Part shown: one piece after another, positions 6,782 through 32,494 of the stretch
How positions within the stretch are numbered: position 1 is the stretch's first letter
How the letters are laid out: the number at the start of each line of letters is the position of its first letter
From: a virus
IMG/VR virus record: IMGVR_UViG_3300045743_000086
Span: 1-32,561 of that record
Length of the DNA: 32,561 nucleotides
Strand: one strand, 5' to 3'
The notes under the pieces: model-generated
The model's input: the letters and a program-made list of their open reading frames with translations, nothing else
Databases searched by the model: none
Told to the model about the DNA's origin: nothing
Program-made: the position numbers and the translations under genes

Positions 6782-6816
6782 ATTTTTTATAATGAAACAC
6801 AAGTGAGGATTTAAAG

Positions 6817-7104: not shown

Positions 7105-7177
7105 TTATGATAGTATATTAGAACTAGTATTAAATATTTCTCACCAACTTTTCAATGAAATAAATAAGGAATTAAAT

Positions 7178-7486: not shown

Positions 7487-7493
7487 AAGGTTT

Positions 7494-7574
7494 TGTTAGT
7501 ATAACACTAGTCGGACTTAGAACCGTGTAATGAGATATCTATTGCTTTAAAATGCCTCCTATGTTATACTAACA
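7494..7574 (+). repeat. 13-bp inverted repeat enclosing an 55-nt loop in a leader region
   Basis: TGTTAGTATAACA (7494-7506) is the exact reverse complement of TGTTATACTAACA (7562-7574). Each arm is also nearly self-complementary (TGTTA/TAACA around three bases), so each could be a small operator or a hairpin. Smaller pairings are possible inside. As RNA it would form an 81-nt stem-loop just before the gp44-type gene; as DNA the right arm contains a possible -10 element. Confidence 0.65.
7542..7571 (+). promoter_or_regulatory. Possible promoter before the clamp-loader gene
   Basis: TTGCTT at 7542-7547, an 18-base spacer and TATACT at 7566-7571, inside the right arm of the inverted repeat. The -35 is imperfect; the -10 and the position 33 bases before the gp44-type ATG are favourable. 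Confidence 0.4.
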
Positions 7575-7603
7575 TTCTATTTACCATTGAGATTTAATAT
7601 ATT

Positions 7604-8542: not shown

Positions 8543-8703
8543 TGTTTGCACTAGCAGGATTGTGGTTTGCTTTTATCTCTACTTTTGGTATAGCTATTAA
8601 AACTAAATGCGAAGGTGTTGATAGATTATCGTTAGGTATTAATTTTGTAGTATTTTCTATTAATAGTTTATTTTTATATAGTGATTTATATGGAATTATT
8701 TAA
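8542..8703 (+). CDS. Tiny hydrophobic protein between clamp-loader subunit genes, 53 residues
   Basis: ATG 8542 shares a base with the stop of the gp44-type gene; the frame runs to TAA 8701-8703. The product has two hydrophobic segments (about residues 2-20, FALAGLWFAFISTFGIAI, and 33-47, INFVVFSINSLFLY) separated by a short charged loop TKCEGVDR, so it could be a two-pass membrane protein. Its end overlaps the start of the gp62-type gene, and it bridges an otherwise 147-base gap. No family is recognised. It may also help couple translation from gp44 to gp62. Confidence 0.6.
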   Translation: MFALAGLWFAFISTFGIAIKTKCEGVDRLSLGINFVVFSINSLFLYSDLYGII

Positions 8704-9073
8704 GGAACTACTACCATCCTTATTACAGACTAAAAATTATCTGATAGATGATGATAATGAAAAGGAATATACACCTTATGTTGTTAACAGATCATTATCG
8801 AACCACGTAGATTGTTTAATGTATGCTAATGAAATGAATAACTATCCACATTTGGATAAGAAATTGCAATATGATTATTATTATCATTCATTGCCAGCTA
8901 AAAAAAGACCATATCAAAAATGGTTAAAATATACCGAGGCTTCTGATTTATCAGTTATTAAAGAATATTTTGGATTCTCTTTAGATAAAGCAAAAGAAGC
9001 TTTAAAAATTCTAACTCAAGATCAAGTATTAGAAATTAAAGAATTATGTAATAAAGGCGGACAAGGTAAGTAA
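8690..9073 (+). CDS. 62: Clamp-loader small subunit (T4 gp62-like)
   Basis: This 127-residue protein resembles the short gp62 form of marine T4-like phages rather than the 187-residue T4 protein. Features include MELFKELLPSLLQTK at the start, EYTPYVVNRSLSNHVDCLMYANEMNNYPHLD, QYDYYYHSLPAKKRPYQKWLKY and a final helical ALKILTQDQVLEIKEL. The subunit has no ATPase motifs; it completes the gp44/gp62 loader. ATG 8690 fits the family start; a GTG at 8681 in frame would add three residues. No good Shine-Dalgarno is seen for either, which suggests coupling to the overlapping tiny gene upstream. Confidence 0.85.
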   Translation: MELFKELLPSLLQTKNYLIDDDNEKEYTPYVVNRSLSNHVDCLMYANEMNNYPHLDKKLQYDYYYHSLPAKKRPYQKWLKYTEASDLSVIKEYFGFSLDKAKEALKILTQDQVLEIKELCNKGGQGK

Positions 9074-11905: not shown

Positions 11906-11934
11906 TTGACATTATTTTATATTTGTGGTATATT
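11906..11934 (+). promoter_or_regulatory. Sigma70-type promoter
   Basis: TTGACA at 11906-11911, a 17-base spacer and TATATT at 11929-11934. It lies in the 190-base gap after dCMP deaminase, about 39 bases before the ATG at 11973. The rest of the gap is AT-rich with no supported gene. Confidence 0.75.
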
Positions 11935-11972
11935 GATTTTTTAATTAAATGTGGAATAGAGGTAATAAAAGT

Positions 11973-12413
11973 ATGAAGAAATATATTAGTAATAGAATTC
12001 AAGATTTAAAGTTTTTTTGGCAATATTTAACCTTTGAATATACTAAAGTAAGTTATGAAAATAGTAGTCAATTAGAAAAGTTATTATATCTAAATTTCTC
12101 TAAGTTTGAATATCTGGTTGATACCTATTACCCATTAACAAATGTACTTGAAACAGAAAATTTATATTCTTGGTGGAAAGCTAGAGATTCTAGAGAAGAA
12201 CCTTTTGAAAAATATAATGATTTTATTGCAACATTGAGTAGTGATACATCATCTAAATTTTATTTTTCAGAAATCTGGAAACTTGAAAATACTAATATTT
12301 ATGATGAAGTTAAATTACAATTAAAGAGAGCTAGAGAATTAGAATCTAAGTATTTCTTTGAAGATAAAGAAATGTTACATCGGGTTATTGATTTAATGAT
12401 TAGTTATGATTAA
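11973..12413 (+). CDS. Hypothetical protein upstream of DNA methyltransferase
   Basis: This 146-residue protein starts MKKYISNRIQDLKFFWQYL. ATG 11973 is chosen because AGAGG at 11958-11962 is correctly spaced for it; an in-frame ATG at 11949 would lie too close to the predicted transcription start. The protein looks all-helical and rich in aromatic and charged residues (YSWWKARDSREEPFEKY, LQLKRARELESKYFF). No domain, signal or membrane segment is recognised. It overlaps the cytosine methyltransferase gene by eight bases and has its own promoter, so it heads the methyltransferase operon. Confidence 0.7.
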   Translation: MKKYISNRIQDLKFFWQYLTFEYTKVSYENSSQLEKLLYLNFSKFEYLVDTYYPLTNVLETENLYSWWKARDSREEPFEKYNDFIATLSSDTSSKFYFSEIWKLENTNIYDEVKLQLKRARELESKYFFEDKEMLHRVIDLMISYD

Positions 12414-18015: not shown

Positions 18016-19020
18016 ATGGTAACTACTCAACAGATAGAAAATTTATTTTATTCTGAGACAGATAATAAATATAAATTAATGTTAAAAACTCATTGGGAAA
18101 CTGGTATACATTATCTATGTATAACTAAACGAAAAAATTTTAGAAAATATACTGGATCTGGTGTTAGATGGAAGATTTTATTAAAATCCCATCCATCACC
18201 TGTATTCACTTGTTTGTTATTTTCATCTGATGATATAGATGAATTTAATGCTATATGTATAGAACATAATAATTTATTTAATATACCAAATAACCAAAAT
18301 TTTGCTAATTTAGTCCCTGAATATGGGTATACTGGAAATCAAGGAAATCTTCCTATGTGGTGGGAGACTGCATCTGATATAGATAAAGATATAACTAGAA
18401 AAAAGATAACGACATCTAGAAAAGTAACTTGTTTAGAAAAGTATGGTAAATCTCATGTTATGGATATAGCTAGACTTGGATTACTCGATTATTATATAAA
18501 ACATAATGTGAAATCTGCTATGCATATACCGGAAGTAGCAGAGAAATGTAAGCTTTCTAGAGAATCTACGATGATGGAAAAGTATGGGGTTATTAATAAT
18601 ATGCAAGTACCAGAGATATCAAATAGATGTAGAATTTCTAGGGAAGCAACTATGATGGAAAAGTATGGGGTTGTACATTCTTTACAAATTCCTGGATTGG
18701 GTAAAAAAGTAAAAATTTCTAGAGAAGCTACGATGATGGAAAAATATGGGGTTCCAAATGCATCATTAGTACCTGAAATTGCCGCTAAACGAGGTCTTAA
18801 AATATCAGAAACATTTAAGAATAAATCAAACGTAAAATGTGAATTTTGTGATCATGAATCGAAAAGTGTATTAAATCATCAAAATTATTGTAAATATAAT
18901 CCAAATAAACTTATTAGACAAAAATATGAATGTCCAAATTGCGGAGGATTTTTTGATAAATTAAATCTAAACAGGTGGCATCTAGATAACTGTAAATCAT
19001 TAACTAAAGGTATATTATGA
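18016..19020 (+). CDS. Putative GIY-YIG-type homing endonuclease with tandem repeats and zinc fingers
   Basis: This 334-residue protein begins with the variant GIY-YIG domain of phage nucleases: TGIHYLCITKRKNFRKYTGSGVRWKILLKSH (29-59), then an acidic helix (DEFNAICIEHNNLFNI) and NFANLVPEYGYTG (95-107). Glu76 or Glu83 may be the metal ligand. The middle has four repeats of the type REATMMEKYGV (from about residues 138, 184, 211 and 238). The C-terminus has two zinc-finger-like sets: Cys275, Cys278, His289, Cys292, and Cys306, Cys309, His322, Cys326. A strong AAAGGAG precedes the ATG. The gene lies between polymerase and UvsX and overlaps uvsX by four bases, as expected for a mobile gene tolerated in an operon. 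Confidence 0.75.
   Translation: MVTTQQIENLFYSETDNKYKLMLKTHWETGIHYLCITKRKNFRKYTGSGVRWKILLKSHPSPVFTCLLFSSDDIDEFNAICIEHNNLFNIPNNQNFANLVPEYGYTGNQGNLPMWWETASDIDKDITRKKITTSRKVTCLEKYGKSHVMDIARLGLLDYYIKHNVKSAMHIPEVAEKCKLSRESTMMEKYGVINNMQVPEISNRCRISREATMMEKYGVVHSLQIPGLGKKVKISREATMMEKYGVPNASLVPEIAAKRGLKISETFKNKSNVKCEFCDHESKSVLNHQNYCKYNPNKLIRQKYECPNCGGFFDKLNLNRWHLDNCKSLTKGIL
18556..18753 (+). repeat. Three 36-nt near-identical units at 81-nt spacing
   Basis: The segment TCTAG(A/G)GAA followed by ATGATGGAAAA(G/A)TATGGGGTT begins at 18556, 18637 and 18718, each 81 bases (27 codons) apart. Only a few bases differ between copies, so the duplication is recent or the units are homogenised by recombination. 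They encode the REATMMEKYGV modules. Confidence 0.85.
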
Positions 19021-20090
19021 AAAATCCACTATTAGATAGAATATTAAAAAATAGTCCAACAAAACATACATCAATTTTATCTAAATCTGTTATGTTTAAA
19101 GATAAAGATGTTATTCCTACAGATATACCTATTATAAATATAGCATTTTCTGGAGATATTGATGGTGGTATTAGTTCTGGTTTAACTTTGTTAGCTGGTA
19201 GCAGCAAGACATTTAAATCGATGGCTTCTTTAATTTGTGTTAGAGCATATTTAAACAAATATCCAGAAGCAGTTTGTATTTTATATGATTCTGAGGGTGG
19301 AATCACTCCAGAATATTTGACCGCATTAGGGGTAGATCCAGATAGAGTAGTTCATATACCAATTGAACATATTGAAATGTTAAAATTTGATTTAGTAAAA
19401 CAATTGAATGAGATTACTAGAGAAGATAAAGTTATTATTGTTATTGATTCAATCGGAAATACCGCGAGTCTTAAAGAATTAGAAGATGCTATAAATGAAA
19501 AATCTGTAGCAGAAATGCAAAGAGCAAAATCTATTAAAAGTTTGTTTAGGATGGTTACACCTTCTTTTGTTGCTAAAGATGTTCCGTGTCTAGCAATATG
19601 TCATACATATTCTGAAATGTCATTGCATCCTCGTCAAATCATAAGCGGTGGAACTGGATTAATTTATTCAGCAAATCAAGCATTTATAATTAGTAAAGCA
19701 CAAGAAAAAGATGGTACTGAATTAGTTGGTTATAATTTTACAATTAATATCGAAAAATCTAGGTTTGTTCGGGAAAAATCTAAATTAACATTTACTGTCA
19801 CGTATGAGAATGGTATTCAAAAATATTCTGGTTTAATGGATATTGCCTTGGGATTGGGGTTTTGTGCTAAACCAAAAAATGGTTGGTATGCTAAAGTAAA
19901 TTCTGACACTGGTGAAATTATAGAAAAGAATTATAGATTTAAAGATACTTTAAATGATGATTTTTGGGGTAGTATATTATCTGATGAAAAATTTAAATTA
20001 GCGGTTAAATCAAAATTTCAACTAGGTATGAATTCTATGATTTCTGATGAAGAAATAGAATCTCCGTTTCCTGAAGAAGACGAAGATTAA
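19017..20090 (+). CDS. uvsX: UvsX recombinase (RecA/Rad51 family)
   Basis: This 357-residue protein has a RecA core: DIPIINIAFSGDIDGGISSGLTLLAGSSKTFKS with a UvsX-type Walker A (60-68), LYDSEGG with the Glu that senses DNA (90-95), Walker B VIIVIDSIG (139-147), and ISGGTGLIYSANQAFII. The C-terminus is acidic (SPFPEEDED), as in UvsX. It coats single-stranded DNA and drives strand exchange for recombination-dependent replication and repair, working with gp41 in T4. The start overlaps the nuclease gene (ATGA). Length is slightly below T4 UvsX (391). A terminator follows. Confidence 0.94.
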   Translation: MKNPLLDRILKNSPTKHTSILSKSVMFKDKDVIPTDIPIINIAFSGDIDGGISSGLTLLAGSSKTFKSMASLICVRAYLNKYPEAVCILYDSEGGITPEYLTALGVDPDRVVHIPIEHIEMLKFDLVKQLNEITREDKVIIVIDSIGNTASLKELEDAINEKSVAEMQRAKSIKSLFRMVTPSFVAKDVPCLAICHTYSEMSLHPRQIISGGTGLIYSANQAFIISKAQEKDGTELVGYNFTINIEKSRFVREKSKLTFTVTYENGIQKYSGLMDIALGLGFCAKPKNGWYAKVNSDTGEIIEKNYRFKDTLNDDFWGSILSDEKFKLAVKSKFQLGMNSMISDEEIESPFPEEDED

Positions 20091-20097
20091 TCAAACA

Positions 20098-20132
20098 AAA
20101 GTAAAGAAGTCATAAAAACTTCTTTACTTTTT
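20098..20132 (+). terminator. Rho-independent terminator after uvsX
   Basis: AAAGTAAAGAAGT (20098-20110) pairs with ACTTCTTTACTTT (20118-20130) across a 7-nt loop, followed by a T-run (TTTTT). Confidence 0.9.
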
Positions 20133-20151
20133 CCTAAAGTTATAGTATACT
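20123..20151 (+). promoter_or_regulatory. Probable promoter overlapping the uvsX terminator
   Basis: TTTACT at 20123-20128, a 17-base spacer and TATACT at 20146-20151. The -35 lies inside the terminator stem. It would drive the small gene at 20213, gp41 and probably the sugar cassette. Confidence 0.5.
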
Positions 20152-20212
20152 AGAGTTTCGCATGAATTTATTACGAAAATTAAAACAACTATTTAAAAGA
20201 CGAGGTAAGAAT

Positions 20213-20554
20213 ATGGATGAATTAAAAGAGGGTATTGATTTCAGATTTCAGATGGTTAATGAGATTAGTGCTGTAGCGATTATTTCGGGTAAATATGATG
20301 GTGTTGTTGTAGCATTTAATGATGTTTCTATCTCAGAACCAGAAAATATTAATGGAGTTGATACTCCACCATATTTATCTTTTCATTATGATATTATTTC
20401 TGGTGTTGATTTTTCTGATGAAGAATTATTAGATGATGAAGAATTTAAAAATCATATTGGTAATATTTTAATGAATGTTATTGTTAATAGTAATACTACT
20501 ACATCATCTTTTACAGATGCTTTGGATGAAACTATAGAATATACTGAGATTTAA
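20213..20554 (+). CDS. Hypothetical acidic protein preceding the helicase
   Basis: This 113-residue protein starts MDELKEGIDFRFQMVNEIS. ATG 20213 has GAGG (20202-20205) at good distance; an in-frame ATG at 20162 would add a basic segment (MNLLRKLKQLFKRRG) but lies only a few bases from the predicted transcript start. Predicted strands (AVAIISGKYDGVVVAFNDVSI, PYLSFHYDIISG) are followed by an acidic loop (SDEELLDDEEF) and a helix. No family is named with confidence. The stop shares a base with the helicase start (TAATG), tying its translation to gp41. Confidence 0.7.
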   Translation: MDELKEGIDFRFQMVNEISAVAIISGKYDGVVVAFNDVSISEPENINGVDTPPYLSFHYDIISGVDFSDEELLDDEEFKNHIGNILMNVIVNSNTTTSSFTDALDETIEYTEI

Positions 20555-21960
20555 TGGATATTAATACTTTAATATTAAAGAACCTCCATTACAATGAAGA
20601 ATTTTGTAGAAAAGTTCTTCCATTTTTAAAACCTGAATATTTCACACAACGAAATGAAAAAATAATATTCGAAGAAATTTTAGATTTCATAACAGAATAT
20701 AGAAATATTCCTACATACGAATCTTTGATTATTCAAATGAATGAAAAATCATTATCTGAAAATGATTATAAGACTAGTATTGAATTATTAGATATTTTGC
20801 ATGAATCTAAAGCAGAAACTGTGGAGTTAGATTGGTTAGTAAATAAAACTGAACAATTCTGTCAAGAGAGAGCTATCTACAATGCTGTTGTAGAGTCTAT
20901 ATCTATCCTTGACAACACGAATACTACATTAAGTAAGGGTAGTATTCCCGGATTGCTTTCTGATGCTCTAGCAGTGTCTTTTGATGCCTCTATCGGACAT
21001 GATTATGCTGATGATTCAGATTCTAGATATGATTATTATCATAGGACTGAAGATAGAATTCCTTTTGATTTAGAGTACTTTAATCTTATCACAAATGGGG
21101 GTTTACCGAAGAAAACTCTAAATGTAATTCTCGCACCACCTCATTGTGGTAAATCTTTAGTTATGTGTCATTTTGCAGCATCTTTCTTGAGAGCTGGAAA
21201 GAATGTTTTATATATTACATGTGAAATGGCAGAAGAAGAACTGGCAAAGCGTATTGATGCAAACTTGATGAATGTATCAATGAACGAAGTTACAACAATG
21301 CCTAAAGATGTTTTTCAGCAAAAGGTTAATAAAATTACATCTAAATTAGTTGGTAAACTGAAATTTAAAGAATATCCAACAGCATGTGCTTCGGTATCTC
21401 ATTTTAGAGTTTTGTTGAATGAATTAAAACTAAAGAGTAATTTTGTTCCTGATGTTATATTTGTAGATTATCTTAATATTTGTGCATCGTCTAGGGTTAA
21501 GATGTCTGGTTCGGTGAATTCGTATACATATATTAAAGCTATTGGTGAAGAATTAAGAGGTTTAGCTCAAGAGTATAATCTTCCAGTAATTACAGCTACT
21601 CAGACTACTAGAGGTGCGAGTACATCTTCAGATCCTGAAATGGGTGATGTATCAGAATCGTTCGGAATTCCAGCCATTTCGGACATGCTATTTGCTTTAG
21701 TTAATTCAGATGAGTTGAAAGCATTAGATCAATTGATGATTAAACAGATTAAGAATAGATATTCTGATGTAAATAATAATACTAGATTTGTTGTTGGGAT
21801 TTCAAGACCTATGATGAAATTGTATGATGCTGAAGACTCAGCTCAAGTTGGTATTACTGGAGCTAATCAAACACCAGCAGTACAAGTACCAACAGCAGCG
21901 TTTGGTACTAATGGTAGAGAAGCATTTAAGAAAAAAAATATTAGTGGGATAAAAGTATGA
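20554..21960 (+). CDS. 41: Replicative DNA helicase (T4 gp41-like, DnaB family)
   Basis: This 468-residue protein matches T4 gp41 (475). It has a helical N-terminal domain (NEEFCRKVLPFLKPEYFTQRNEKIIF), a linker helix, and a RecA-like motor: FDLEYFNLITNGGLPKKTLNVILAPPHCGKS with Walker A at 194-201, YITCEMAEEELAKRIDANLMNV, Walker B VIFVDYLNI and TATQTTRGA. It unwinds DNA 5'-3' ahead of polymerase as a hexamer and supports primase. The motif order is complete. It overlaps the first glycosyltransferase gene of the sugar cassette by four bases, so the cassette is transcribed with replication genes unless internal promoters exist. Confidence 0.94.
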   Translation: MDINTLILKNLHYNEEFCRKVLPFLKPEYFTQRNEKIIFEEILDFITEYRNIPTYESLIIQMNEKSLSENDYKTSIELLDILHESKAETVELDWLVNKTEQFCQERAIYNAVVESISILDNTNTTLSKGSIPGLLSDALAVSFDASIGHDYADDSDSRYDYYHRTEDRIPFDLEYFNLITNGGLPKKTLNVILAPPHCGKSLVMCHFAASFLRAGKNVLYITCEMAEEELAKRIDANLMNVSMNEVTTMPKDVFQQKVNKITSKLVGKLKFKEYPTACASVSHFRVLLNELKLKSNFVPDVIFVDYLNICASSRVKMSGSVNSYTYIKAIGEELRGLAQEYNLPVITATQTTRGASTSSDPEMGDVSESFGIPAISDMLFALVNSDELKALDQLMIKQIKNRYSDVNNNTRFVVGISRPMMKLYDAEDSAQVGITGANQTPAVQVPTAAFGTNGREAFKKKNISGIKV

Positions 21961-22637
21961 AAATAAATTCTAGTGATTTTTTGTTAACCGTAATAACTCC
22001 AACTATAGGTAGAAAAAATTTAGATAATTTAATAAAAAGTATAGAAAATCAAACTATTTCTGATAAAATATTTCATATATTAATGTGGGATGAATTTAGA
22101 GAACTAGATTCAAAATTACCGGAAACTTATAATTCAACTAATAGATGGAGTATTAATCTTCCTTGGGGATTAGGTAAAAATGGAAATGCTCCAGGAAGCT
22201 CTCTAAGAGCTGTAGCTTTAAATGCAGCAGATACTCCATATGTAACATTTGCTGATGATGATGTAGTTTGGAAGCCTAATCATGCAGAAACATTATTAGA
22301 ATCTATTAAAAATTTAAATTGGTCTAGTTGTTTACGTAATATATATGCTGAATCCGGTGAATATTATGGTATAGATAATTTTGAAAGTGTTGGTGATTCG
22401 GTATCTAGAAGAGTTCCTTATGAAATGTTGGATGGGAACTGTATGATTTTTAAGCGTGAATATGGAATAGTCGCTTCACAATTATATCGCACAACACAAG
22501 ATCGAAATGATGATAGGTTATTATATAACTTTTTAAAAGAACATGCTGGACAATTAGGTAGAACCAATCAAGCTACAATAAATCATACATGTCCAGATTT
22601 TTTAAATGAGTTTTTTAAGGAGAATTGTACATTATGA
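21957..22637 (+). CDS. Family 2-type glycosyltransferase
   Basis: This 226-residue protein has a GT-A nucleotide-sugar fold: a starting strand LLTVITPTIGRKNLDNLIKS (9-28), a SLRAVALNAADTPYVTFADDDV segment with the metal-binding Asp100-Asp-Asp102, and an acceptor-side region DGNCMIFKRE. It would transfer sugar from an NDP-sugar with inverting stereochemistry, as usual for GT2. There are no membrane segments. It is the first gene of the sugar cassette, overlaps the gp41 gene by four bases, and its end overlaps the next glycosyltransferase start by four. Confidence 0.85.
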   Translation: MKINSSDFLLTVITPTIGRKNLDNLIKSIENQTISDKIFHILMWDEFRELDSKLPETYNSTNRWSINLPWGLGKNGNAPGSSLRAVALNAADTPYVTFADDDVVWKPNHAETLLESIKNLNWSSCLRNIYAESGEYYGIDNFESVGDSVSRRVPYEMLDGNCMIFKREYGIVASQLYRTTQDRNDDRLLYNFLKEHAGQLGRTNQATINHTCPDFLNEFFKENCTL

Positions 22638-23296
22638 AATTTGTGACGTTTTTAAATTCTGGTTGTTTAGAAATTTGTAAAAATATGTTAAAATCTGCAG
22701 AATTAGTTGGAATTAATTTAGATGATTTTTATATTGCATGTTTAGATAACAATTCTTTAGAGGCATTTAAAGAATATAAAAATGCATACCTATATATTAA
22801 TCAAGAATTAACTGAATACCAAGATTGGAGTTTTGATGAAAGTTCAAATTTTAGATCTATTGTCCAATATAAATGGAAAATTATTGAAGAGCAATATTTA
22901 AAACATAAAGATTTAGTTTGGGTTGATACTGATATTGTTTTTAAAGAAAACCCAACAGAATATTTGAATAGTTTTGATAAGATATGTTTCCAAAGTGATC
23001 TTCCTGGAAGTCTTGTTTGTACTGGATTTATGAAATTTGTTGATAGTGATTTGTGTCGCACATTAATTTCTTTGTGTGCAAGTTATGAAGGTCAAGATGA
23101 TCAATTAATTTTTAATCATATTATTAAAGATTATATTATTGAGTGTGAATTATTGAATGAAGATTTATTTCCAAATGGAAATTCCTATTATAAATTAGGT
23201 AAAAAATCTAAAGCTATTATTGTCCATAATAATTGGATGGTTGGGATTGATACAAAGATACAAAGATTTAAAGATGAAAATTTGTGGTTTATATAA
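22634..23296 (+). CDS. Nucleotide-diphospho-sugar transferase-like protein
   Basis: This 220-residue protein starts at ATG 22634, behind AAGGAG (22617-22622); a TTG at 22625 is a weaker option. It opens MKFVTFLNSG and has DFYIACLDNN, then KDLVWVDTDIVF with a DxD (Asp98, Asp100), then CFQSDLPGSLVCTGFM. The order resembles the nucleotide-diphospho-sugar transferase family (GT77-like), with VWVDTD the metal-binding site. A late HNNWMVG may contribute the catalytic pocket. It probably attaches one sugar of a short glycan; donor and acceptor are unknown. Confidence 0.75.
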   Translation: MKFVTFLNSGCLEICKNMLKSAELVGINLDDFYIACLDNNSLEAFKEYKNAYLYINQELTEYQDWSFDESSNFRSIVQYKWKIIEEQYLKHKDLVWVDTDIVFKENPTEYLNSFDKICFQSDLPGSLVCTGFMKFVDSDLCRTLISLCASYEGQDDQLIFNHIIKDYIIECELLNEDLFPNGNSYYKLGKKSKAIIVHNNWMVGIDTKIQRFKDENLWFI

Positions 23297-23313
23297 TAAA
23301 AAGGAAATTGGAA

Positions 23314-24150
23314 ATGAAAAATGAATTAAGACCTACCGCAGATTATCCAATATACCCACCATATCATACTGGATTGTACCTTGAAGAATATTTTTATGAC
23401 AAATATAAAGATTCTAATAGAGAATATATTGATATTTTTTGGACCAATCTTTATTGCAATAAGGATTATTTGAATTCCGACATAATTGATATTCAAAAAG
23501 CATTATCTGAATTAGATCCAAATAAAAAGTATTTTACCGTATGTCAACATGATGATGGACCAAAAGAAAATCTCCCAGAAGACACGTTAATTTTTTCTGC
23601 TGGAGGTAGGAGAACTCATGGAAATATTATCCCAATACCATTAATTTGTTCTCCAATACCAAAAGAATTAATTGGGTCTTATATTAAAAAAGATTTGTTT
23701 GCATCCTTTGTTGGGTCTCTTACACACAACATAAGAGAAAAGCTTTATTATGAATTAAAAGATAAAGAAGGTTATTCTTATAACATGTGTAATTGGTCTA
23801 ATACAGTTCCACAAGAAAATTTAAAATATTTTATTGATATTAGTTTAAGAAGTAAATTTGTTTTATGTCCTAGAGGATATGGTCCAACTTCATTTAGATT
23901 ATATGAAGCTTTTCAGTTAAATTCTGTACCAGTTTATATTTCTGATATACATTATCTTCCTTGGGTAGATGAATTAAATTGGGCTGAATTTTGCGTTATA
24001 ATTAATGAAGAAGATATTTCCAATATAGATACTATTTTAAAGTCTATATCAGATGAAGACTATAATAAGATGTTAATTAAAGGTGCTACAATATATAATG
24101 AATATTTTAGTTTATCTGGTGTATATAGCAACATAATGAAACGACTATGA
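23314..24150 (+). CDS. Exostosin-like glycosyltransferase (GT47)
   Basis: This 278-residue protein starts at ATG 23314 behind AAGGAAAT; a GTG at 23284 is unlikely. It carries the exostosin signature: RSKFVLCPRGYGPTSFRLYEAF, QLNSVPVYISD, LPWVDELNWAEFCVIINEED, and a helical end. It also has an N-terminal part with SAGGRRTHGNIIPIPL. GT47 enzymes are inverting glycosyltransferases of the GT-B fold. No membrane anchor is present, so it is probably cytoplasmic. The end overlaps the methyltransferase gene by four bases. Confidence 0.82.
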   Translation: MKNELRPTADYPIYPPYHTGLYLEEYFYDKYKDSNREYIDIFWTNLYCNKDYLNSDIIDIQKALSELDPNKKYFTVCQHDDGPKENLPEDTLIFSAGGRRTHGNIIPIPLICSPIPKELIGSYIKKDLFASFVGSLTHNIREKLYYELKDKEGYSYNMCNWSNTVPQENLKYFIDISLRSKFVLCPRGYGPTSFRLYEAFQLNSVPVYISDIHYLPWVDELNWAEFCVIINEEDISNIDTILKSISDEDYNKMLIKGATIYNEYFSLSGVYSNIMKRL

Positions 24151-24857
24151 TGATTTTTAGTGAAAAAGATATAAATGATACATATTTGGAATTTGTAGTA
24201 AAACCAGCTGAATATTTTAATAAATCCAATATAGAATATGATAAATTATCATCTAATGAAAAAGTTAAATGGTTTAATAGAGATTTTCCTAGATTAGCTT
24301 CTTTATTTGACTTTAAAGATTGGATTGTAAAATACAATATTTCTACGGGAGATAAATTATTATCCACCTTTATAGATGATTGCGAATTGGAATATATTAA
24401 CTATAACAAACTTTATGTTGCAGATTATTCTAAAGACTCTAGGTTTGATATACATACTATGGTATTATCTGAAACTAACTTTGATTTTATAATTTTCAAT
24501 CAAACGCTAGAACATTTGTATAACCCTTTTATGGCTATGGAAAATTTATACAAACATTTAAACCCTGGAGGGTATTTGTATACTACAGTACCAACCATAA
24601 ATATACCACATATGCAACCATTTCATTTTTGGGGAATTACGCCAATTGGTTTGTGTATGTTGTGTAAAAGTGTAGGTTTTAATATATTAGAATGTGGGTA
24701 TTGGGGAAATTTGGAGTATATTAAATACATATTCTCTAATAACAATTGGCCTACTACTGATGATGTATTGAATGATAATAAAATGATAGATAATAACATG
24801 GTATGTCAAGCACAAACTTGGGTATTAATACAGAAGCCAAAAAATGAGGTTAACTAG
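24147..24857 (+). CDS. SAM-dependent methyltransferase, probably acting on a sugar
   Basis: This 236-residue protein has the late motifs of a Methyltransf_23-type class I enzyme: FDFIIFNQTLEHLYNPFMAMENLYKHLNPGGYLYTTVPT (motifs II-IV), then HMQPFHFWGITPIGLCMLCKSVGF. The usual glycine-rich motif I is not obvious (GDKLLSTFIDDCELEY), so SAM binding may be non-standard. The N-terminal 60 residues are unusual for the family. Two adjacent ATGs (24147, 24150) are possible starts. Its place between glycosyltransferase genes suggests that it methylates a sugar or glycan, although small molecules or proteins remain possible. Confidence 0.7.
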   Translation: MMIFSEKDINDTYLEFVVKPAEYFNKSNIEYDKLSSNEKVKWFNRDFPRLASLFDFKDWIVKYNISTGDKLLSTFIDDCELEYINYNKLYVADYSKDSRFDIHTMVLSETNFDFIIFNQTLEHLYNPFMAMENLYKHLNPGGYLYTTVPTINIPHMQPFHFWGITPIGLCMLCKSVGFNILECGYWGNLEYIKYIFSNNNWPTTDDVLNDNKMIDNNMVCQAQTWVLIQKPKNEVN

Positions 24858-25609
24858 TGAAAAAATATTTAATGGTTATAGCAAATTATTCGGACTATAG
24901 ACAAGAATTCTTTAACGAATATATGTCAAAAAGAAATAGAGAATATTGCACACTTCATGATATAATATATTTAGAATATACGGCACCTATTGAAAAATAT
25001 AGAGATAATTATACATGGTTAAAGTTTACTATTGTGCGAGATTTGATTAATTCGGGATTTTTAGAAGATGGAGATATTCTGACCCATATTGATGCTGATA
25101 TGTGTATTGTAAATCCAAATATAGAATATCCAACTATAAAATCTTTTAATTATAGTATAGATTCCGGTAATACGCATTGTATGGGATCTTATTCTATAAT
25201 AGTAAATAGTTGGTCTAAGAATATGATAGATTTGATATTAGATCAAAGTAGGTTTGATATATTTAAACGCGAATATGTATATCATGAACGTTTAAAGTTT
25301 AATTTTAATTTTTGGGATCTGTTCAGAGAACAAGCATCTTGGTATTCTTTAGCTGGTATAATGCCACATTCCGATAAATCTTTTTGGGAGATAGATAATT
25401 ATGGGTGGCATTCTAAAAAAACAGAACATACTATTTATTCTTTACAAGAATTAGAAGATAATGTTTATATATTACCCACAGAATGGAATGTTACCGAATT
25501 AGTTAATGAATCATCGTGTGAATTTAATATTAATATATGTGATAAAGATTCGGTGATTATACGACATTTTGCTGGAGGTCAACCTTGGAGAAAAGAGTGG
25601 TTTATTTAA
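24857..25609 (+). CDS. Glycosyltransferase, GT34-like
   Basis: This 250-residue protein begins at GTG 24857, which shares a base with the upstream stop and has GAGGT at 24846-24850. It carries NYTWLKFTIVRDLI and DILTHIDADMCIVNP, the pattern of galactosyltransferases of the GMA12/MNN10 type, with DxD Asp79-Ala-Asp81. A GSYSIIVNSW segment and a late IRHFAGGQPW with a conserved His also fit. It is probably retaining by family, but the sugar donor is unknown. No other start is as well supported. Confidence 0.75.
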   Translation: MKKYLMVIANYSDYRQEFFNEYMSKRNREYCTLHDIIYLEYTAPIEKYRDNYTWLKFTIVRDLINSGFLEDGDILTHIDADMCIVNPNIEYPTIKSFNYSIDSGNTHCMGSYSIIVNSWSKNMIDLILDQSRFDIFKREYVYHERLKFNFNFWDLFREQASWYSLAGIMPHSDKSFWEIDNYGWHSKKTEHTIYSLQELEDNVYILPTEWNVTELVNESSCEFNINICDKDSVIIRHFAGGQPWRKEWFI

Positions 25610-25610
25610 T

Positions 25611-26333
25611 ATGAAAATTACAGAATTTACAATATGTTTACATTGTGGGTGTGATTATAATATAGTAAAATCACAAATGGATTCTTTATCCATATTAAAT
25701 TCAAAGTATAATGTATTTTGGAATAATAGAATAGATCGATATCCATATGCGTATCCAAGCTATTCAGAATTAATAAATCATTCAATTATTACATCAAATA
25801 CTGAAATAATTATTTTTATTAACGATAGAACTTTTCCTACCCCAAGCGAAGTTGAATCTATACTAGAACATTTAGAAAATGGGTATGCATGTTCTTTTAT
25901 GTATAATGCTGGATTTATGGGGTTTAGTAAAAGTTTAATCGGAAAAATCGGTTGGTGGGATGAACGGTTTTTAGGTGGTGGTTGGGAAGATGTGGATTGG
26001 GTTTTTAGACTAAAATTAAATAATTTAGCCTTATATGAAAGTTGTGATTCAACCTATAGTTATTCTTGGAAAAGCCCATTACAAGATAATGATAAATGTA
26101 TGAAATCAGAACCAGAATTTTTTTCAAAATATACTTTTTTAAATGATAAAATTATAAAAAATTTTGGTGAGCTATATAATAATTCATATACTGATATACT
26201 TATAAATGATAATTTTGCGTGGAAATCTTGGGATAATTCAACTTTAGGTAAAAATTATATTGGTCCAAATAAAGGCAATCCTGCATCATATCATTTAATT
26301 GACAAACTAATCATTGAGAATAATAATGTATAA
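25611..26333 (+). CDS. Glycosyltransferase with WED-type catalytic motif
   Basis: This 240-residue protein starts at ATG 25611, one base behind the previous stop. It has IIIFINDRTFP, where Asn71-Asp72 replaces the usual DxD, and WWDERFLGGGWEDVDWVFRL (115-134) with the Glu126-Asp127 pair that marks the C-terminal half of family 7-type galactosyltransferases. A GFMGFSKSLIGKIG strand is also typical. The fold is probably GT-A. The end overlaps the next start by eight bases. The acceptor cannot be told. Confidence 0.75.
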   Translation: MKITEFTICLHCGCDYNIVKSQMDSLSILNSKYNVFWNNRIDRYPYAYPSYSELINHSIITSNTEIIIFINDRTFPTPSEVESILEHLENGYACSFMYNAGFMGFSKSLIGKIGWWDERFLGGGWEDVDWVFRLKLNNLALYESCDSTYSYSWKSPLQDNDKCMKSEPEFFSKYTFLNDKIIKNFGELYNNSYTDILINDNFAWKSWDNSTLGKNYIGPNKGNPASYHLIDKLIIENNNV

Positions 26334-26958
26334 TATAAATTTAAGAAAAATAACTGAGCATTTAACTATGGTAGAAGAAAATCATGTTGGGGGATTTCTT
26401 ATAGAAAAAGACCCTGCTACTTATATGCCAAAATTGTGGGAATATATTATAAAAACTTATAATGTAAATTCAATTTTAGATATTGGTTGTGGTATGGGTC
26501 ATGCAATAGGAGAATTTTCTTCTCATATCCCATTAAATAATATTACTGGTGTAGATGGGTCAACTTTTGTAAAAGAAAATAGCACCTATTCAGATAATAT
26601 TATTTTTCATGACTTTACTTCTGGAGAATTAATTTTAGAACAGGAATTTGATTTTGGTTGGTGTTGTGAGTTTGTAGAACATATTGAAGAAAAATATAAA
26701 GCAAATTTCTTATCATTATTTTCAAAGTGTAAGATTTTAGCGATAACATATGCAGAACCTGGACAAGAAGGGCATAATCATGTAAATTGTCAACCAAAAG
26801 AATATTGGATTAATGAATTAGCATTATATGGGTTTAAATATGATGAACAATTAACCGAAAATTTAAAAGTAGTAACTTTTGCTGATGCAATATCTATTAA
26901 CCCAGAATATAAAGATAATCATTTTTATAATAGAGGGTTATTTTTTATAAAAAAATAA
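26326..26958 (+). CDS. Class I SAM-dependent methyltransferase
   Basis: This 210-residue protein has a clear SAM motif I, ILDIGCGMGHAIGEF (50-64), then ITGVDGS (acidic ribose-binding strand), FDFGWCCEFVEHI, and a later HNHVNCQPKEYWINELALYGF that could bind a metal through its His residues. Methyltransferases of this cassette type commonly modify sugars or glycans. ATG 26326 is used; a TTG at 26314 is the weak alternative. The start lies inside the end of the previous gene. The substrate cannot be stated. Confidence 0.8.
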   Translation: MYNINLRKITEHLTMVEENHVGGFLIEKDPATYMPKLWEYIIKTYNVNSILDIGCGMGHAIGEFSSHIPLNNITGVDGSTFVKENSTYSDNIIFHDFTSGELILEQEFDFGWCCEFVEHIEEKYKANFLSLFSKCKILAITYAEPGQEGHNHVNCQPKEYWINELALYGFKYDEQLTENLKVVTFADAISINPEYKDNHFYNRGLFFIKK

Positions 26959-26967
26959 AATATTATT

Positions 26968-28203
26968 ATGAATACTATATATAAAATACGTTGTAAATGT
27001 TCAAGTTGTGATTCGTCTAATTTATCAACAATTATTAGTTTAGGGGAAATTCCATTAGCTGGACATTTCCCAACTTCACCTGAATTCTCGACTAAATTTA
27101 ATTTGAACTTATTATTATGTGAAGATTGTAAATTGGTTCAGACTGATTCAATAATAAATGCTGATTATTTATTTAAAGATTATAGATATTCCTCTTCTGT
27201 TGGATTAAGTGCTCATTTTAAACAATATGCTATAGACTTAAATAATTTATATGATATTTCTAATAAAAATATTTTAGAATTTGGTAGTAATGATGGAACT
27301 TTATTATATTATTTAAAAGAATTTGGAGCTAATGTTTTAGGGGTTGATCCAGCCGAAAATATCATTAAGCTTGCTGATGATAAAGGGTTAACTACATTTT
27401 CTGGTTATTTTAATACTGCTAATTTTTGTATAGACACATATAAAAATAAATTTGATGTGATTATTGGAAATAATGTATTTGCTCATATTGATGATATAAA
27501 TGATGTAGTAAGAGCTATAGATTATTGCTTATCTAACTCTGGAAAGTTTATCTTTGAAGTTCATTATCTTAAAAATTTGATTTTAGAAAATCAATGGGAT
27601 AATATTTATCATGAACATATATATTATTATTCAATTACTTCCTTAAATAATTTATTTAATAAATATAATTTATATATTTCTAATGTAGATGAAGTTTCAA
27701 GCCATAGTGGATCAATTAGAGTCACTGTTGATAAACATAATTCAAATTCTAAACTTGTTGATGATATGATAGAAGCTGAAATTTTATTATATTCTAATGA
27801 GATCCCTAAATTTAAAACTAATTATATTCAAAATATTAAACATATTAAAAACTATATATTAGAGTTGAAGTCTAAAGGTTTTACTTTAGGTGGGTATGGG
27901 GCATCGGGTAGAGCTAATATGTTTTGTAATATTATTGGGTTAAATGATTCTATCATTGATTTTATAGTTGATGAATCATTAGAACGACAAAATAGATATA
28001 TTGCTGATTGTAAAATTCCAATTATTACATATGAAGAATTTCAAAAAAAATCTATAGATTATTTAATAATTTTTGCTTGGAATTATGTAAAATTAATTGT
28101 GAATAAAACTTCAGATCAAGATTATAATTATATTATATTTTTTCCAGAAATTAAATCATTTACAAAATCTGAACTTCAAACTCTTACTTTTAATTCATTA
28201 TGA
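26968..28203 (+). CDS. NDP-sugar C-methyltransferase (TylCIII/TcaB9 type)
   Basis: This 411-residue protein has the three-part layout of sugar C-methyltransferases: an N-terminal zinc-binding domain (Cys11, Cys14, Cys51, Cys54; SLGEIPLAGHFP), a SAM domain with ILEFGSNDGTLL (102-113) and GVDPAENI, and a C-terminal domain with GYGASGRANMF. The length, 411, equals the family norm. These enzymes add a methyl to C3 of a 4-keto-6-deoxy-NDP-sugar. A 4-keto sugar could come from the dehydratase-like gene directly downstream. The end overlaps that gene by four bases. This is the clearest pointer to a branched-chain, methylated deoxysugar. Confidence 0.88.
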   Translation: MNTIYKIRCKCSSCDSSNLSTIISLGEIPLAGHFPTSPEFSTKFNLNLLLCEDCKLVQTDSIINADYLFKDYRYSSSVGLSAHFKQYAIDLNNLYDISNKNILEFGSNDGTLLYYLKEFGANVLGVDPAENIIKLADDKGLTTFSGYFNTANFCIDTYKNKFDVIIGNNVFAHIDDINDVVRAIDYCLSNSGKFIFEVHYLKNLILENQWDNIYHEHIYYYSITSLNNLFNKYNLYISNVDEVSSHSGSIRVTVDKHNSNSKLVDDMIEAEILLYSNEIPKFKTNYIQNIKHIKNYILELKSKGFTLGGYGASGRANMFCNIIGLNDSIIDFIVDESLERQNRYIADCKIPIITYEEFQKKSIDYLIIFAWNYVKLIVNKTSDQDYNYIIFFPEIKSFTKSELQTLTFNSL

Positions 28204-29135
28204 TTGAAAATAGTAGAATATTTATAACAGGTGGTGCTGGATATTTAGGTAAACATATAATTAAACAATATTATGATAATAATGATATAACAATTTATTC
28301 AAGAGATGAGTCTAAGCATTATTTTTTAAAAAAAACTTACCCAAATATTAAGTGTGTAGTTGGTGATATTAGAGATTATGATTTACTTAAACGTAAATCT
28401 AAAAATCATGATATTGGAATTTTTGCTGCAAGTTTAAAACAAATCGAAGCTTGTGATGAAAACCCAGAAGAAGCAGTAAAAATTATTATTGATGGCGCAT
28501 TAAATTCTAGAAGAGTCTCTATAGAAAATGAATTTAAATGTGCTAGTTTTATTAGTACTGATAAATCTAGGTCTGCTACTACAATTTATGGTGCCATGAA
28601 ATATGTAGCAGGAGAAAGTTTTATATTAAATAATGATAGCGATACTAAACTATCTACTGTTATTTATGGTAATGTATTAAATTCTACTGGTAGTATAATT
28701 CCATTAATTTGGTCTGCTATAAAAAATAATATAGAAATACCTTTATATTCAAATTCAATGACTAGATTTGCAATTTGTGTTGACGATGCTATAAATTTAA
28801 TTGAAAGATCATTAAATTTTGATGGAGTAAATATTATACCTAATATTAAAAGTATTAATATATTAGATTTATTTGAAATTTATTCTGAAAAATTTAAATT
28901 AAAATATTCAATAAAATCCCCAAGGATTGGAGAAAAAATTCATGAAATAATGGCTTCATCTGAAGAGATTCCGAGGTTAAAATTTCATTCAGATTTTAAT
29001 TTATACTCGTTACACCCGAAAATTCATTTTAATGAACTTACTTTTAAAGATAATGAATATTCCTCAAAAAATTTTGTATTAGCAAAATCTGAATTGATTG
29101 ATTTATTAGAATCGTATGATTACTTTAGACAATGA
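28200..29135 (+). CDS. NDP-sugar 4,6-dehydratase-like enzyme (CapD/PseB/FnlA type)
   Basis: This 311-residue short-chain dehydrogenase has the NAD(P) loop GGAGYLG (11-17), FAASLKQIEACDENPEEAV, the catalytic Asp121-Lys122 in STDKS, and YGAMK with Tyr130 and Lys134. RxGNV and GSIIPLIW also fit CapD-type enzymes. Those convert UDP-GlcNAc to 4-keto-6-deoxy sugar, some with C5 epimerisation. The Asp-Lys-Tyr set is present, so it is probably active; the substrate (UDP-GlcNAc or other NDP-hexose) is inferred. It overlaps its neighbours by 4 and 20 bases. Confidence 0.82.
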   Translation: MIENSRIFITGGAGYLGKHIIKQYYDNNDITIYSRDESKHYFLKKTYPNIKCVVGDIRDYDLLKRKSKNHDIGIFAASLKQIEACDENPEEAVKIIIDGALNSRRVSIENEFKCASFISTDKSRSATTIYGAMKYVAGESFILNNDSDTKLSTVIYGNVLNSTGSIIPLIWSAIKNNIEIPLYSNSMTRFAICVDDAINLIERSLNFDGVNIIPNIKSINILDLFEIYSEKFKLKYSIKSPRIGEKIHEIMASSEEIPRLKFHSDFNLYSLHPKIHFNELTFKDNEYSSKNFVLAKSELIDLLESYDYFRQ

Positions 29136-29901
29136 TATTTTAGTTTTAGGTCATACTGGATTATTAGGCGATTGTGTTGTAAAATATTTCAATAGTAATG
29201 GAATTAGTGTTCAAGTTATAAATTTTAGATACCCATCAATTGAATTTTTTAACTCTATAAAATCTTTTTCTGGTATAGTTATAAATTGTATAGCAGAATT
29301 ACATGATGAAAGTAAATTTAATATTAATTATGATTTACCTACATTTTTACATAATAATTTTAAATTAATACATCCATGTTCAGATGCAGTATATTCTGGT
29401 AATATATTGCCAGAATATACATATAATAAATTTTCAATAATAAACCCATCAAATTATTATGGAGAAAGTAAAGCTAAGTTTTTTTCGAATATTAATAATC
29501 CTTCTAATGTTAGAGTGATTAGAAGTTCTATTATAGGATTCGATAAACATAATACTTCACTTTTATCTTGGTTTTTATCGTCAAAAAACGAATGTGCTGG
29601 ATATTCAAATTATTTTTGGAATGGTATAACTGCTCTTGAATGGGCAAAGTGTAGTTTTAATTTATGTTTAAATTTTAATACTACCCCATTATTAACTATG
29701 CTTTCTTCAGACTTAATAATTTCAAAATATGATTTACTTAATATTTTTAAATTAGTCTATAAAAAGCCTATAAATATTATACAATCTACTATTAAAGATA
29801 CAAAAAATTATTCCATTGAATCTGATATAAAATTAGATTCGATATATAACCAATTACTTTCTTATAATTTACTATACACTAACCCACAATTAATATTATG
29901 A
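29116..29901 (+). CDS. RmlD-like NDP-sugar reductase
   Basis: This 261-residue short-chain dehydrogenase has cofactor loop GHTGLLG (12-18), a CSDAVYSG strand with the catalytic Ser/Thr region, and YYGESKA with Tyr115 and Lys119. This is the pattern of dTDP-4-keto-6-deoxy-hexose reductases such as RmlD, slightly shorter than usual (about 290). It could reduce the 4-keto sugar made by the preceding dehydratase and methylated by the C-methyltransferase. The start overlaps the dehydratase gene by 20 bases, and the end overlaps the FkbM gene by four. The exact substrate is inferred from context. Confidence 0.75.
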   Translation: MITLDNDILVLGHTGLLGDCVVKYFNSNGISVQVINFRYPSIEFFNSIKSFSGIVINCIAELHDESKFNINYDLPTFLHNNFKLIHPCSDAVYSGNILPEYTYNKFSIINPSNYYGESKAKFFSNINNPSNVRVIRSSIIGFDKHNTSLLSWFLSSKNECAGYSNYFWNGITALEWAKCSFNLCLNFNTTPLLTMLSSDLIISKYDLLNIFKLVYKKPINIIQSTIKDTKNYSIESDIKLDSIYNQLLSYNLLYTNPQLIL

Positions 29902-30533
29902 TCAGTTATTCTCAAAATTCGTTAGATATAAAATTACTAGAATATGTTAACTATAAAAATGGAGTTTTTGTAGAATGTGGGGCTAATGATGGTATTACTG
30001 CTTCCAATTCATATTTATTTGAAACCACTCTGAACTGGTCTGGGTTATTAGTTGAACCTACTTTTGAAAATTATATTAAATGTAAAGAATTAAGATCGAA
30101 TTCTATAGTTGAAAATTATGCTTTAGTTAGTTTTGATTATGAAAAACACAATTCTACTATATCTGGGGATTTTATTTATTCTGAAGATAATGTTAATGGG
30201 CTAATGTCTGGAATATCTGGAGTCGAGAAGTATTATCAACCAACTATAGAATCTAAAAATATAAAAGTTCCTTGCATATCATTACATAATTTAATACTTA
30301 AACACAATATCAAATCTATAGATTTGTTTAGTCTTGATGTCGAAGGTTATGAACTTGAAGTATTAAATGGAGTTGATTTTTCTTATATCAGACCAAAATA
30401 TATTTTAATAGAAACTGCAAATATATTAAAATATCAAGAACTTATTAGAACTTTTATGGAAACTAAAAATTATGTATTCTTAACACAGCTTTCTGGTAAT
30501 GATGATTTATTTGTAGATTCATTTTTAATTTAA
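29898..30533 (+). CDS. FkbM-family methyltransferase
   Basis: This 211-residue protein follows the FkbM pattern: GVFVECGANDGITASNSYLFE (motif I), WSGLLVEP, ENYALV, then a loop, VPCISLHNLILKHNIKSIDLFSLDVEGYELEVLNG, and ILIETAN. FkbM enzymes are SAM-dependent O-methyltransferases, often on sugars or glycans. All strands are present, so it should be active. It would methylate a hydroxyl of the same sugar or of the growing glycan, but no direct evidence is available. The start shares bases with the reductase gene, and a short AAAGG-containing gap follows. Confidence 0.85.
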   Translation: MISYSQNSLDIKLLEYVNYKNGVFVECGANDGITASNSYLFETTLNWSGLLVEPTFENYIKCKELRSNSIVENYALVSFDYEKHNSTISGDFIYSEDNVNGLMSGISGVEKYYQPTIESKNIKVPCISLHNLILKHNIKSIDLFSLDVEGYELEVLNGVDFSYIRPKYILIETANILKYQELIRTFMETKNYVFLTQLSGNDDLFVDSFLI

Positions 30534-30545
30534 AGGTATAATATA

Positions 30546-31469
30546 ATGAAAATATTAGTAACAGGTGGTTCTGGTTTTATTGGTTCACATTTATGTGCAA
30601 AATTGCTTGATCAAGGGCATTTTGTAATTTGTGTTGATAATTGTTTTAGTAGTGATAAATCAAATATTAATAATTTACTTGATAATAAAAATTTTGAATT
30701 TATTCGCCATGATGTAACTTTTCCATTATATCTTGAAGTAGATCAAATTTATAATTTGGCGTGTCCTGCTTCTCCAATACATTATCAAAAAGATCCAATA
30801 CAAACAACTAAAACGTCTGTTCTTGGGGCGATTAATATGTTAGGATTAGCTAAGAGGTTGGGTGTTCGAATACTACAAACGTCTACCTCTGAGGTGTATG
30901 GAGATCCTTTAATACACCCTCAAATTGAATCGTATTGGGGTAATGTTAACCCTATTGGTATTAGGAGTTGTTATGATGAAGGAAAGAGAGTTGCAGAAAC
31001 CCTATTTTTTGATTATCATAGACAACATAATGTTGATATTAGAATAGCTAGAATTTTTAATACATATGGTCCTAATATGCACCCCAATGATGGTAGGGTG
31101 GTTTCTAATTTTATTATGCAAGCATTACAGGATAGAGATATAACTATATATGGCGATGGAAACCAAACTAGAAGTTTTCAATATATAGATGATTTAATAT
31201 CTGGATTAATATCCTTAATGAATTCGGATGAAGTTGGGCCAATAAATCTAGGAAATCCTAATGAATTTACTATATCTGAATTGGCAAATAAAGTAATACA
31301 ATTAGTTGGTAGTAAGTCAATTATAATATATAAAGACCTCCCCTTAGATGACCCAAAACAGCGTAAACCAGATATATCATTAGCTAAAACTAAACTAGGT
31401 TGGTATCCGCATATTCAATTAGATTCTGGGTTAAAATCTACAATTGAATATTTTAAAACCCAATTGTAA
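30546..31469 (+). CDS. UDP-glucuronate decarboxylase (UDP-xylose synthase) type enzyme
   Basis: This 307-residue short-chain dehydrogenase has GGSGFIG (7-13), [21 protein letters not shown], the catalytic TSTSEVYGD (112-120), [18 protein letters not shown] with Tyr143 and Lys147, and [18 protein letters not shown]. This set is specific to UDP-xylose synthase, which converts UDP-glucuronate to UDP-xylose via a 4-keto intermediate. UDP-glucuronate would have to come from the host, since no Ugd-like gene is seen. AAAGG before the ATG is the ribosome-binding site. It closes the sugar cassette, and a late promoter follows. Confidence 0.92.
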
Positions 31470-31474
31470 TTTTA

Positions 31475-31482
31475 TATAAATA
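31475..31482 (+). promoter_or_regulatory. T4-type late promoter octamer TATAAATA
   Basis: An exact TATAAATA immediately follows the sugar cassette. Its expected start site is near 31488-31490. This falls at the end of the 5' arm of the hairpin at 31478-31512. Confidence 0.75.
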
Positions 31483-31512
31483 CTTAATATAACTCTTTCA
31501 TATTAGGTATTT
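31478..31512 (+). promoter_or_regulatory. RBS-masking hairpin
   Basis: AAATACTTAATAT (31478-31490) pairs over 13 positions (one G-T) with ATATTAGGTATTT (31500-31512), loop of nine. The AGG of the ribosome-binding site for the ATG at 31516 lies in the 3' arm. Read-through transcripts from upstream would hide it; late transcripts would lack the 5' arm. This is the arrangement known in T4 for genes such as soc and e. Confidence 0.75.
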
Positions 31513-31515
31513 ACT

Positions 31516-31737
31516 ATGTTTTCTAACAATAAAGTTTCTCCATCTATTTTAGCTGCGATTAATACTATCTTTAATGAGGATATGGAATATGTAGCTGTTC
31601 ATAAACCATCCGGTAAGGTTTCGTTTGTTGGTAAAACTAAACAAGACAGGGATGGTTATATCACAAAACATGGTTCAAGTCATGAACCAAAGAAAACTAC
31701 TCCTAATAGTAAGAAAGTTGGAGATACTTGGATTTAA
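31516..31737 (+). CDS. Small late protein, 73 residues
   Basis: This protein begins MFSNNKVSPSILAAINTIFNED, a probable helix. It has a short strand MEYVAVHKPSGKVSFVGK and a basic, polar tail (KHGSSHEPKKTTPNSKK). It has no Cys, signal or membrane segment, and no family is recognised. The late promoter and masked ribosome-binding site upstream indicate expression only late in infection, consistent with a virion or assembly role. The next gene begins two bases after its stop. Confidence 0.75.
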   Translation: MFSNNKVSPSILAAINTIFNEDMEYVAVHKPSGKVSFVGKTKQDRDGYITKHGSSHEPKKTTPNSKKVGDTWI

Positions 31738-31738
31738 T

Positions 31739-32494
31739 ATGCAAAATAATCAAGCTTTATTTATATTAGGATCTCCTGGTTCTGGTAAAGATGTAGTAAT
31801 TAGAGATATAACATCAAACTATAATATAGTTGAATTTACTTCTGTGCAGATAGATGAAATGTTATCTAATAATGATTCTTTTGTTAGAGCCAAATCAGAT
31901 AAACGTAATGCTCTATTAAATACTGAATCTATAATAGTTACTGCCAATACATTTGATTTAAATTTCATAGTAACTAAACATGTATTAGAATCTATTGGTT
32001 ATACCTCACATTTAATTATTGTAGAAGCAGATTTATCTACCTCATACGATAGATTACAAAATAGGAATAATTTAAGAGAATCCTTAAATAGAATATCTAT
32101 AGGTAATTCAAATAAAAATTCTATCATTTCAGAATTTAATTCTTATGTTATAGTTAATAATTCAAAATATTTAGATTTAACAGAATCTAGGAATTATATT
32201 TCAGATATTTTATCTGATTTAAAGTTTAATAGTACATTATCATTAGAAGATATTGTAAAACCAAAATTAAAATCAAGATTTCGGTATAAATCAAAAACTG
32301 TTCCAGATCAATCTGAAAATGGTATAGTTGGTACTATAATGTTTACTGGTGTTGAATCTATTGATGAACCATCATTTGAAACTAATTTGTTTGGTTCTTC
32401 ACCACAACAAAATGATAAGATAGATAGACAAAACGTTTTAAGTAAAACTAAAAAGATATTATTTAAGAAAAGGATAATTCCAAATGGCATCTAA
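31739..32494 (+). CDS. P-loop ATPase or kinase-like protein
   Basis: This 251-residue protein has an N-terminal Walker A GSPGSGKD (11-18) in a typical strand-loop-helix (ALFILGSPGSGKDVVIRDI) and a later hydrophobic strand HLIIVEADLSTSYDRLQNRN, which resembles the lid of kinase-type P-loop proteins. The C-terminal part is unlike known families and ends in a basic segment (KTKKILFKKRIIPNG). The start is ATG 31739. A TTG further upstream, inside the previous gene, is not credible. It lies in the late gene region behind the late promoter. The substrate is unknown. Confidence 0.7.
   Translation: MQNNQALFILGSPGSGKDVVIRDITSNYNIVEFTSVQIDEMLSNNDSFVRAKSDKRNALLNTESIIVTANTFDLNFIVTKHVLESIGYTSHLIIVEADLSTSYDRLQNRNNLRESLNRISIGNSNKNSIISEFNSYVIVNNSKYLDLTESRNYISDILSDLKFNSTLSLEDIVKPKLKSRFRYKSKTVPDQSENGIVGTIMFTGVESIDEPSFETNLFGSSPQQNDKIDRQNVLSKTKKILFKKRIIPNGI

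Follow-up and report, generated by a model that had tools for sequence, protein, structure and literature searches.

A late-promoter sequence within a ribosome-site hairpin behind the sugar cassette of an uncultured T4-like phage: a candidate timing switch

The DNA analysed here, which we call the window, is a 32,561-nt fragment of a T4-like phage (IMG/VR record IMGVR_UViG_3300045743_000086) in which PHROGs recognise the gp45 clamp, gp44, gp43, UvsX and gp41. In T4, gp45 is also a coactivator of late transcription. The gp41 of the window shares 52-56% identity with the closest named relatives, which are cyanophages and marine single-cell viruses, and it is followed by a block of genes that resemble those for glycosyltransferases, methyltransferases and epimerases; in relatives, other sugar genes occupy the same position. 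From gp41 to the end of this block at 31469 the layout is co-directional throughout, and all of it lies upstream of a late-promoter sequence. The features are as follows.

5177-5860, + strand: gp45 sliding-clamp homologue (PHROGs)
7604-8542: gp44 (PHROGs)
14691 on: gp43 (PHROGs)
19017-20090: UvsX (PHROGs)
20097-20131, + strand: probable terminator between uvsX and gp41, 15-bp stem with T-rich flanks
20554-21960: gp41 (PHROGs)
21957-31469, + strand: sugar/glycosyltransferase cassette, co-directional, after gp41
30546-31469, + strand: nucleotide-sugar epimerase, last cassette gene, stop 5 nt upstream of the promoter
31475-31482, + strand: T4-type late promoter TATAAATA (gp55 consensus), 41 nt 5' of the ATG
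31478-31490, + strand: hairpin 5' arm AAATACTTAATAT
31488 (about +/-1 nt), + strand: predicted late transcription start, from the T4 spacing rule
31491-31499, + strand: hairpin loop AACTCTTTC
31500-31512, + strand: hairpin 3' arm ATATTAGGTATTT
31505-31507, + strand: Shine-Dalgarno AGG within the 3' arm, 8 nt 5' of the ATG at 31516
31516-31737, + strand: gene for a 73-aa protein of unknown function, the candidate for control
31739-32494, + strand: following gene, for a P-loop (kinase/AAA-like) protein; the late RNA of gene 31516 probably extends over it

The stem at 20097-20131 is nearly perfect and T-flanked, and is probably a two-way terminator, which suggests that read-through RNA begins downstream of it, near gp41. 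Since the genes beyond are co-directional, and a scan of the + strand from 20135 to 31475 found no convincing terminator, the promoter would follow a long sugar operon, as the initial annotation of this DNA had described. Elsewhere in the window, two long open reading frames, 591-2183 (-) and 18016-19020 (+), carry repeated 'LERYGVE' / 'MEKYGV' units and look similar to homing-endonuclease-type proteins of phages.

The window letters 31473-31518 read TATATAAATACTTAATATAACTCTTTCATATTAGGTATTTACTATG. That annotation had also placed TATAAATA over one arm (5') of a 13-bp hairpin, with the AGG before ATG 31516 in the other (3'), and the coordinates agree on both points: TATAAATA at 31475-31482 overlaps the arm at 31478-31490, and the AGG at 31505-31507 falls within 31500-31512. 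The stem consists of 13 consecutive pairs (11 A-U, one G-C and one G-U); being AT-rich, the hairpin (-13.8) does not reach the strength of its T4 gene e counterpart, and the Shine-Dalgarno sequence is short, two points that count against a switch. In T4, TATAAATA lies at about -13 to -6 from the late start; by this rule, an RNA begun at the predicted start, 31488, retains just 3 nt of the 5' arm. An extended form of the promoter, TATATAAATACT, recurs at G002:27935, in a contig that also carries the gene at 31516. Late promoters of the type NATAAATA are used by marine T4-like phages (PMC2984593). The sigma factor gp55 turned up in none of the fragments G001-G003, which counts against a switch, but it is found in G004 (E 5e-23), the nearest relative with a larger contig.

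Neither part of the element is evidence when taken alone, since TATAAATA occurs in the window at chance frequency (13 found against 16.7 expected) and the + strand of the window, at 28% GC, holds ten 13-bp stems; the TATAAATA count was therefore rejected as an argument. The combination of promoter and hairpin is unusual. The fold of 31455-31540 (86 nt) has an energy of -13.8 kcal/mol against -6.1 +/- 2.2 for shuffles (z -3.5), a value that one of 200 shuffles equals. When the promoter is kept constant, the observed hiding of the ribosome site is matched by 6 of 2000 dinucleotide-shuffled leaders. These figures bear on the idea that the hairpin is a product of chance or mutation, in which the promoter fixes the 5' arm, the Shine-Dalgarno sequence fixes the 3' arm, and the rest is supplied by AT-rich sequence or by template-switch (quasi-palindrome) copying. 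The frequency of 13-bp stems in the window favours that idea, as does the fact that template switching can perfect palindromes, but hiding as strong as that observed was reached by only 6/2000 and 7/2000 shuffled leaders, and with the conservation and census described below we consider it unlikely. Another stem of at least 13 bp, at 11913-11958, overlaps the start of an open reading frame (11949-12413), with no TATAAATA there.

To quantify hiding, we computed the cost of opening the region from -18 to +12 around the ATG, in read-through RNA and in the predicted late RNA. For the window this cost is 12.1 kcal/mol on the read-through RNA, with the AGG paired, and 3.4 kcal/mol if the RNA starts at about 31488, so the model agrees with the proposal that the hairpin hides the ribosome site and, given that start, would be lost from late RNA. 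In the relative G003 the cost falls from 22.8 to 4.8 kcal/mol, and the established T4 leaders behave alike: 17.5 to 4.0 for e, 18.0 to 4.1 for 49 and 16.7 to 5.5 for I-TevI. At G002:27935, a neighbouring late promoter without a hairpin, the values are 3.6 and 2.2 kcal/mol. The locus had been likened to both soc and e of T4; the likeness to e stands and extends to I-TevI and 49, whereas T4 soc gives no clear switch in the model (9.0 to 7.8 kcal/mol). The locus is thus better compared with e, 49 and I-TevI, of which e and I-TevI come closest.

Across 14 T4-like reference genomes (2.6 Mb), a pattern taken from the pairing core, AAATACYT N2-25 AGGTATT, has only three matches, before T4 e, T4 I-TevI and RB69 e; the reversed pattern has none in the same 14 genomes. 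In the T4 switches, the hairpin forms on long early RNAs and late RNAs are without its 5' strand (PMC3014915, PMC2988022). A 100-fold reduction has been measured for the gene e hairpin, and deletion of the 5' strand at I-TevI leads to early translation (PMC3014915). The mechanism is published for e, 49, I-TevI and mobE and proposed for segB, and no gene e was found among the cyanophages covered in review (PMC3014915, PMC2988022). At T4 e, as in the window, TATAAATA lies in the 5' arm, the AAATACYT/AGGTATT core pairs over the Shine-Dalgarno sequence, the upstream genes are co-directional and the ribosome-binding site is freed in late RNA, in the window by computation; unlike the window, T4 has two tandem late promoters rather than one, and the window's gene is not lysozyme, the lysozyme gene lying about 4 kb downstream. 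T4 I-TevI, in the td intron, shares the AAATACTT/AGGTATTT pairing core and the late promoter in the 5' arm, but encodes an intron homing endonuclease with a link to splicing, whereas the window has a small orphan protein outside introns. At gene 49 of T4 and RB69 a late promoter likewise overlaps the 5' arm of a ribosome-site hairpin, although stem sequence and gene differ.

The 73-aa protein has no phage, PHROG or Pfam match and no solved structural relative, and its structure model (pLDDT 57) is too poor for function. No homology to the products of T4 e, soc, 49 or I-TevI was found, and it is apparently an orthologue of none of them. In a further test on a collection, promoter/Shine-Dalgarno complementarity AAGGTATT was found with a start codon in 15 gene families, against three each for the scrambled versions AAGGTTAT and AAGGTTTA; chance or divergent pairs may account for part of the 15, so we take this test as no more than supportive. 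A pattern scan of the genome contigs gave three matches, all without a suitable start codon.

The gene is carried by three IMG/VR contigs, and the search found no further relatives. Two of the three are identical to the window across the shared part, G002 adding 12 kb. Downstream, G002 encodes a T4-type lysozyme (PF00959), a gp61 primase homologue and nucleotide-metabolism genes; by analogy, late genes would here sit amid early genes, an arrangement in which T4 employs such hairpins. The third contig, G003, has a 73-aa protein of 68% identity behind quite different sugar genes. Between the window and G003 the promoter-hairpin block is identical at 36 of 39 positions, while the upstream flank is unalignable (50%) and the gene has about 77% DNA identity (69% at third positions of same-residue codons). 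The element is conserved across a swap of the cassette, and retention of the 3' arm outside the Shine-Dalgarno sequence, despite diverging flanks, speaks against a mutational by-product. In G003 an outer stem of 12 more pairs is added, in which sequence immediately upstream of the promoter binds the start codon of G003 and the three codons after it, 2-4 (extended fold -24.4, z -7.3). This outer arm does not have the window's sequence and matches G003's own codons, as expected under selection for hiding the start codon; template-switch copying could also produce such a stem. The element is known in just two distinct sequences. Its retention across the cassette swap, together with the outer stem added in G003, argues that the switch is selected. 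L232, the nearest relative by gp41 (65%), has gp41, then a sugar cassette, then a TATAAATA promoter; at this equivalent place the promoter precedes another gene and has no comparable hairpin, an observation that counts against a switch. Apparent intein-like insertions occur in G003 open reading frames for a nucleotide-sugar enzyme and for thymidylate synthase-like and ribonucleotide reductase-like proteins (L003:1-1989; L092:2357-4057 and 6721-8745).

The same sequence can also be read as two inverted, overlapping late promoters, in which case the 3' arm would be a divergent gene's promoter and the hairpin would follow from symmetry alone. There is a precedent: once the pattern was relaxed, a large family emerged in cyanophages, with a similar hairpin between head-closure and tail-tube genes, where CTAAATACTT..AGGTATTTAG fills a 40-nt divergent gap in Synechococcus phage S-SRM01 and many contigs. 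The span of this element is equal, at 35-36 nt, and its TAAATACTT..AGGTATT hairpin matches that of the window in length and spacing. The cyanophage pair, however, stands between divergent genes with no co-directional operon upstream, whereas no minus-strand gene adjoins the element in the window, whose cassette is entirely on the + strand and ends 5 nt before the promoter. Moreover, the would-be minus-strand box AGTAAATA reads CCTAATAC in G003, whose outer stem is not promoter sequence. With no divergent gene and an unconserved box, the divergent-pair reading does not apply to the window, and we hold it to be very unlikely. The conserved 40-nt element itself (NC_070963.1:23038-23082, loci L464, L430, L443 and others) apparently consists of inverted overlapping late promoters.

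A terminator or insulator closing the sugar operon might likewise be expected 5 nt past the cassette's last stop codon, at a boundary that coincides with the swap point between phages. The stem, however, has a single G-C pair among 13 and is followed by no T-run, and the terminator scan does not call it; we find this explanation very unlikely. In the PeSL (promoter-early stem-loop) cassettes of RB49 and phi1, reportedly described by Arbiol et al. in 2010, a promoter and a stem-loop mark a module boundary, as in the window. PeSLs combine sigma70 early promoters with terminators, whereas the window has a late promoter, and a PeSL cassette was rejected, the scan giving no terminator-like site in 31475-31518.

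Overall, we believe, with a probability of roughly 80%, that the element is a timing switch of the T4 gene e / I-TevI type, placed between the sugar cassette and a late gene block. Read-through RNA from gp41 and the cassette, presumably early, would carry both hairpin arms, and the hairpin would cover the AGG of gene 31516 and block initiation. After the onset of replication, RNA polymerase with the gp55 sigma factor would initiate at TATAAATA (31475-31482), and the late RNA, beginning at about 31488 without the 5' arm, would be translated. The T4 switch is known and experimentally proven; what would be new is its use in uncultured phages distant from the T-evens, at a site where the sugar cassettes of relatives differ. 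The finding gives a simple rule for locating such leaders, and predicts which late genes would lose their timing through the movement of modules.

How widespread such leaders may be was addressed by a census of 10 T4-like genomes and about 80 gp41-region contigs, in which 90 co-directional TATAAATA leaders were scored and those with at least 6 kcal/mol of extra hiding in read-through RNA were counted. Twenty-four of the 90 pass, against 8.3 +/- 2.4 after leaders have exchanged their promoter parts and 12.6 +/- 3.0 when leaders are shuffled within their own composition, an enrichment that again weighs against a by-product. They include T4 e, I-TevII, the RB69 leader corresponding to T4 49 (47768) and, in a soc-like position, that of an RB69 79-aa open reading frame at 15255. 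In the full set of 122 leaders, G003 takes second place and G002 the eighteenth. Further predicted leaders with a promoter in the hairpin, in isolated T4-like phages, are at DSL-LC03 (OR003938):40821, Acj9:76630, RB49:48731, RB69:159179, HTVC008M:46284 and KVP40:173443.

A broader and more tentative reading, which we think rather unlikely, is that T4-like phages in general insulate genes by means of a promoter within a ribosome-site hairpin, working in both directions, with late and with early promoters. In the late direction, where late genes would be kept silent on early read-through RNA, the device would comprise the present locus and roughly one in four co-directional TATAAATA leaders; in the early direction, and in these same phages, a sigma70-like early promoter in a 20-bp hairpin would silence gp61 on late read-through RNA. 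If true, one sugar cassette could replace another and leave the timing of the late gene that follows undisturbed. As a general counterpart, sigma70 promoters show no enrichment (11 against 9.9 +/- 3.0). The gp61 primase leader itself (L090:11387-11440, equal to G002:30887-30940, and G003:12005-12058) has a sigma70-like promoter (TTTAC[T/A], 16-17 nt, TATAAT) whose -10 box falls within the 5' arm of the 20-bp hairpin; both AGG and ATG are covered by this hairpin. Its opening cost falls from 20.4 to 5.7 kcal/mol in G002 and from 18.2 to 6.4 kcal/mol in G003, and in the model it would act as a mirror-image switch, silencing the primase on late read-through RNA. A TATAAT within a hairpin also precedes the primase gene of HTVC008M.
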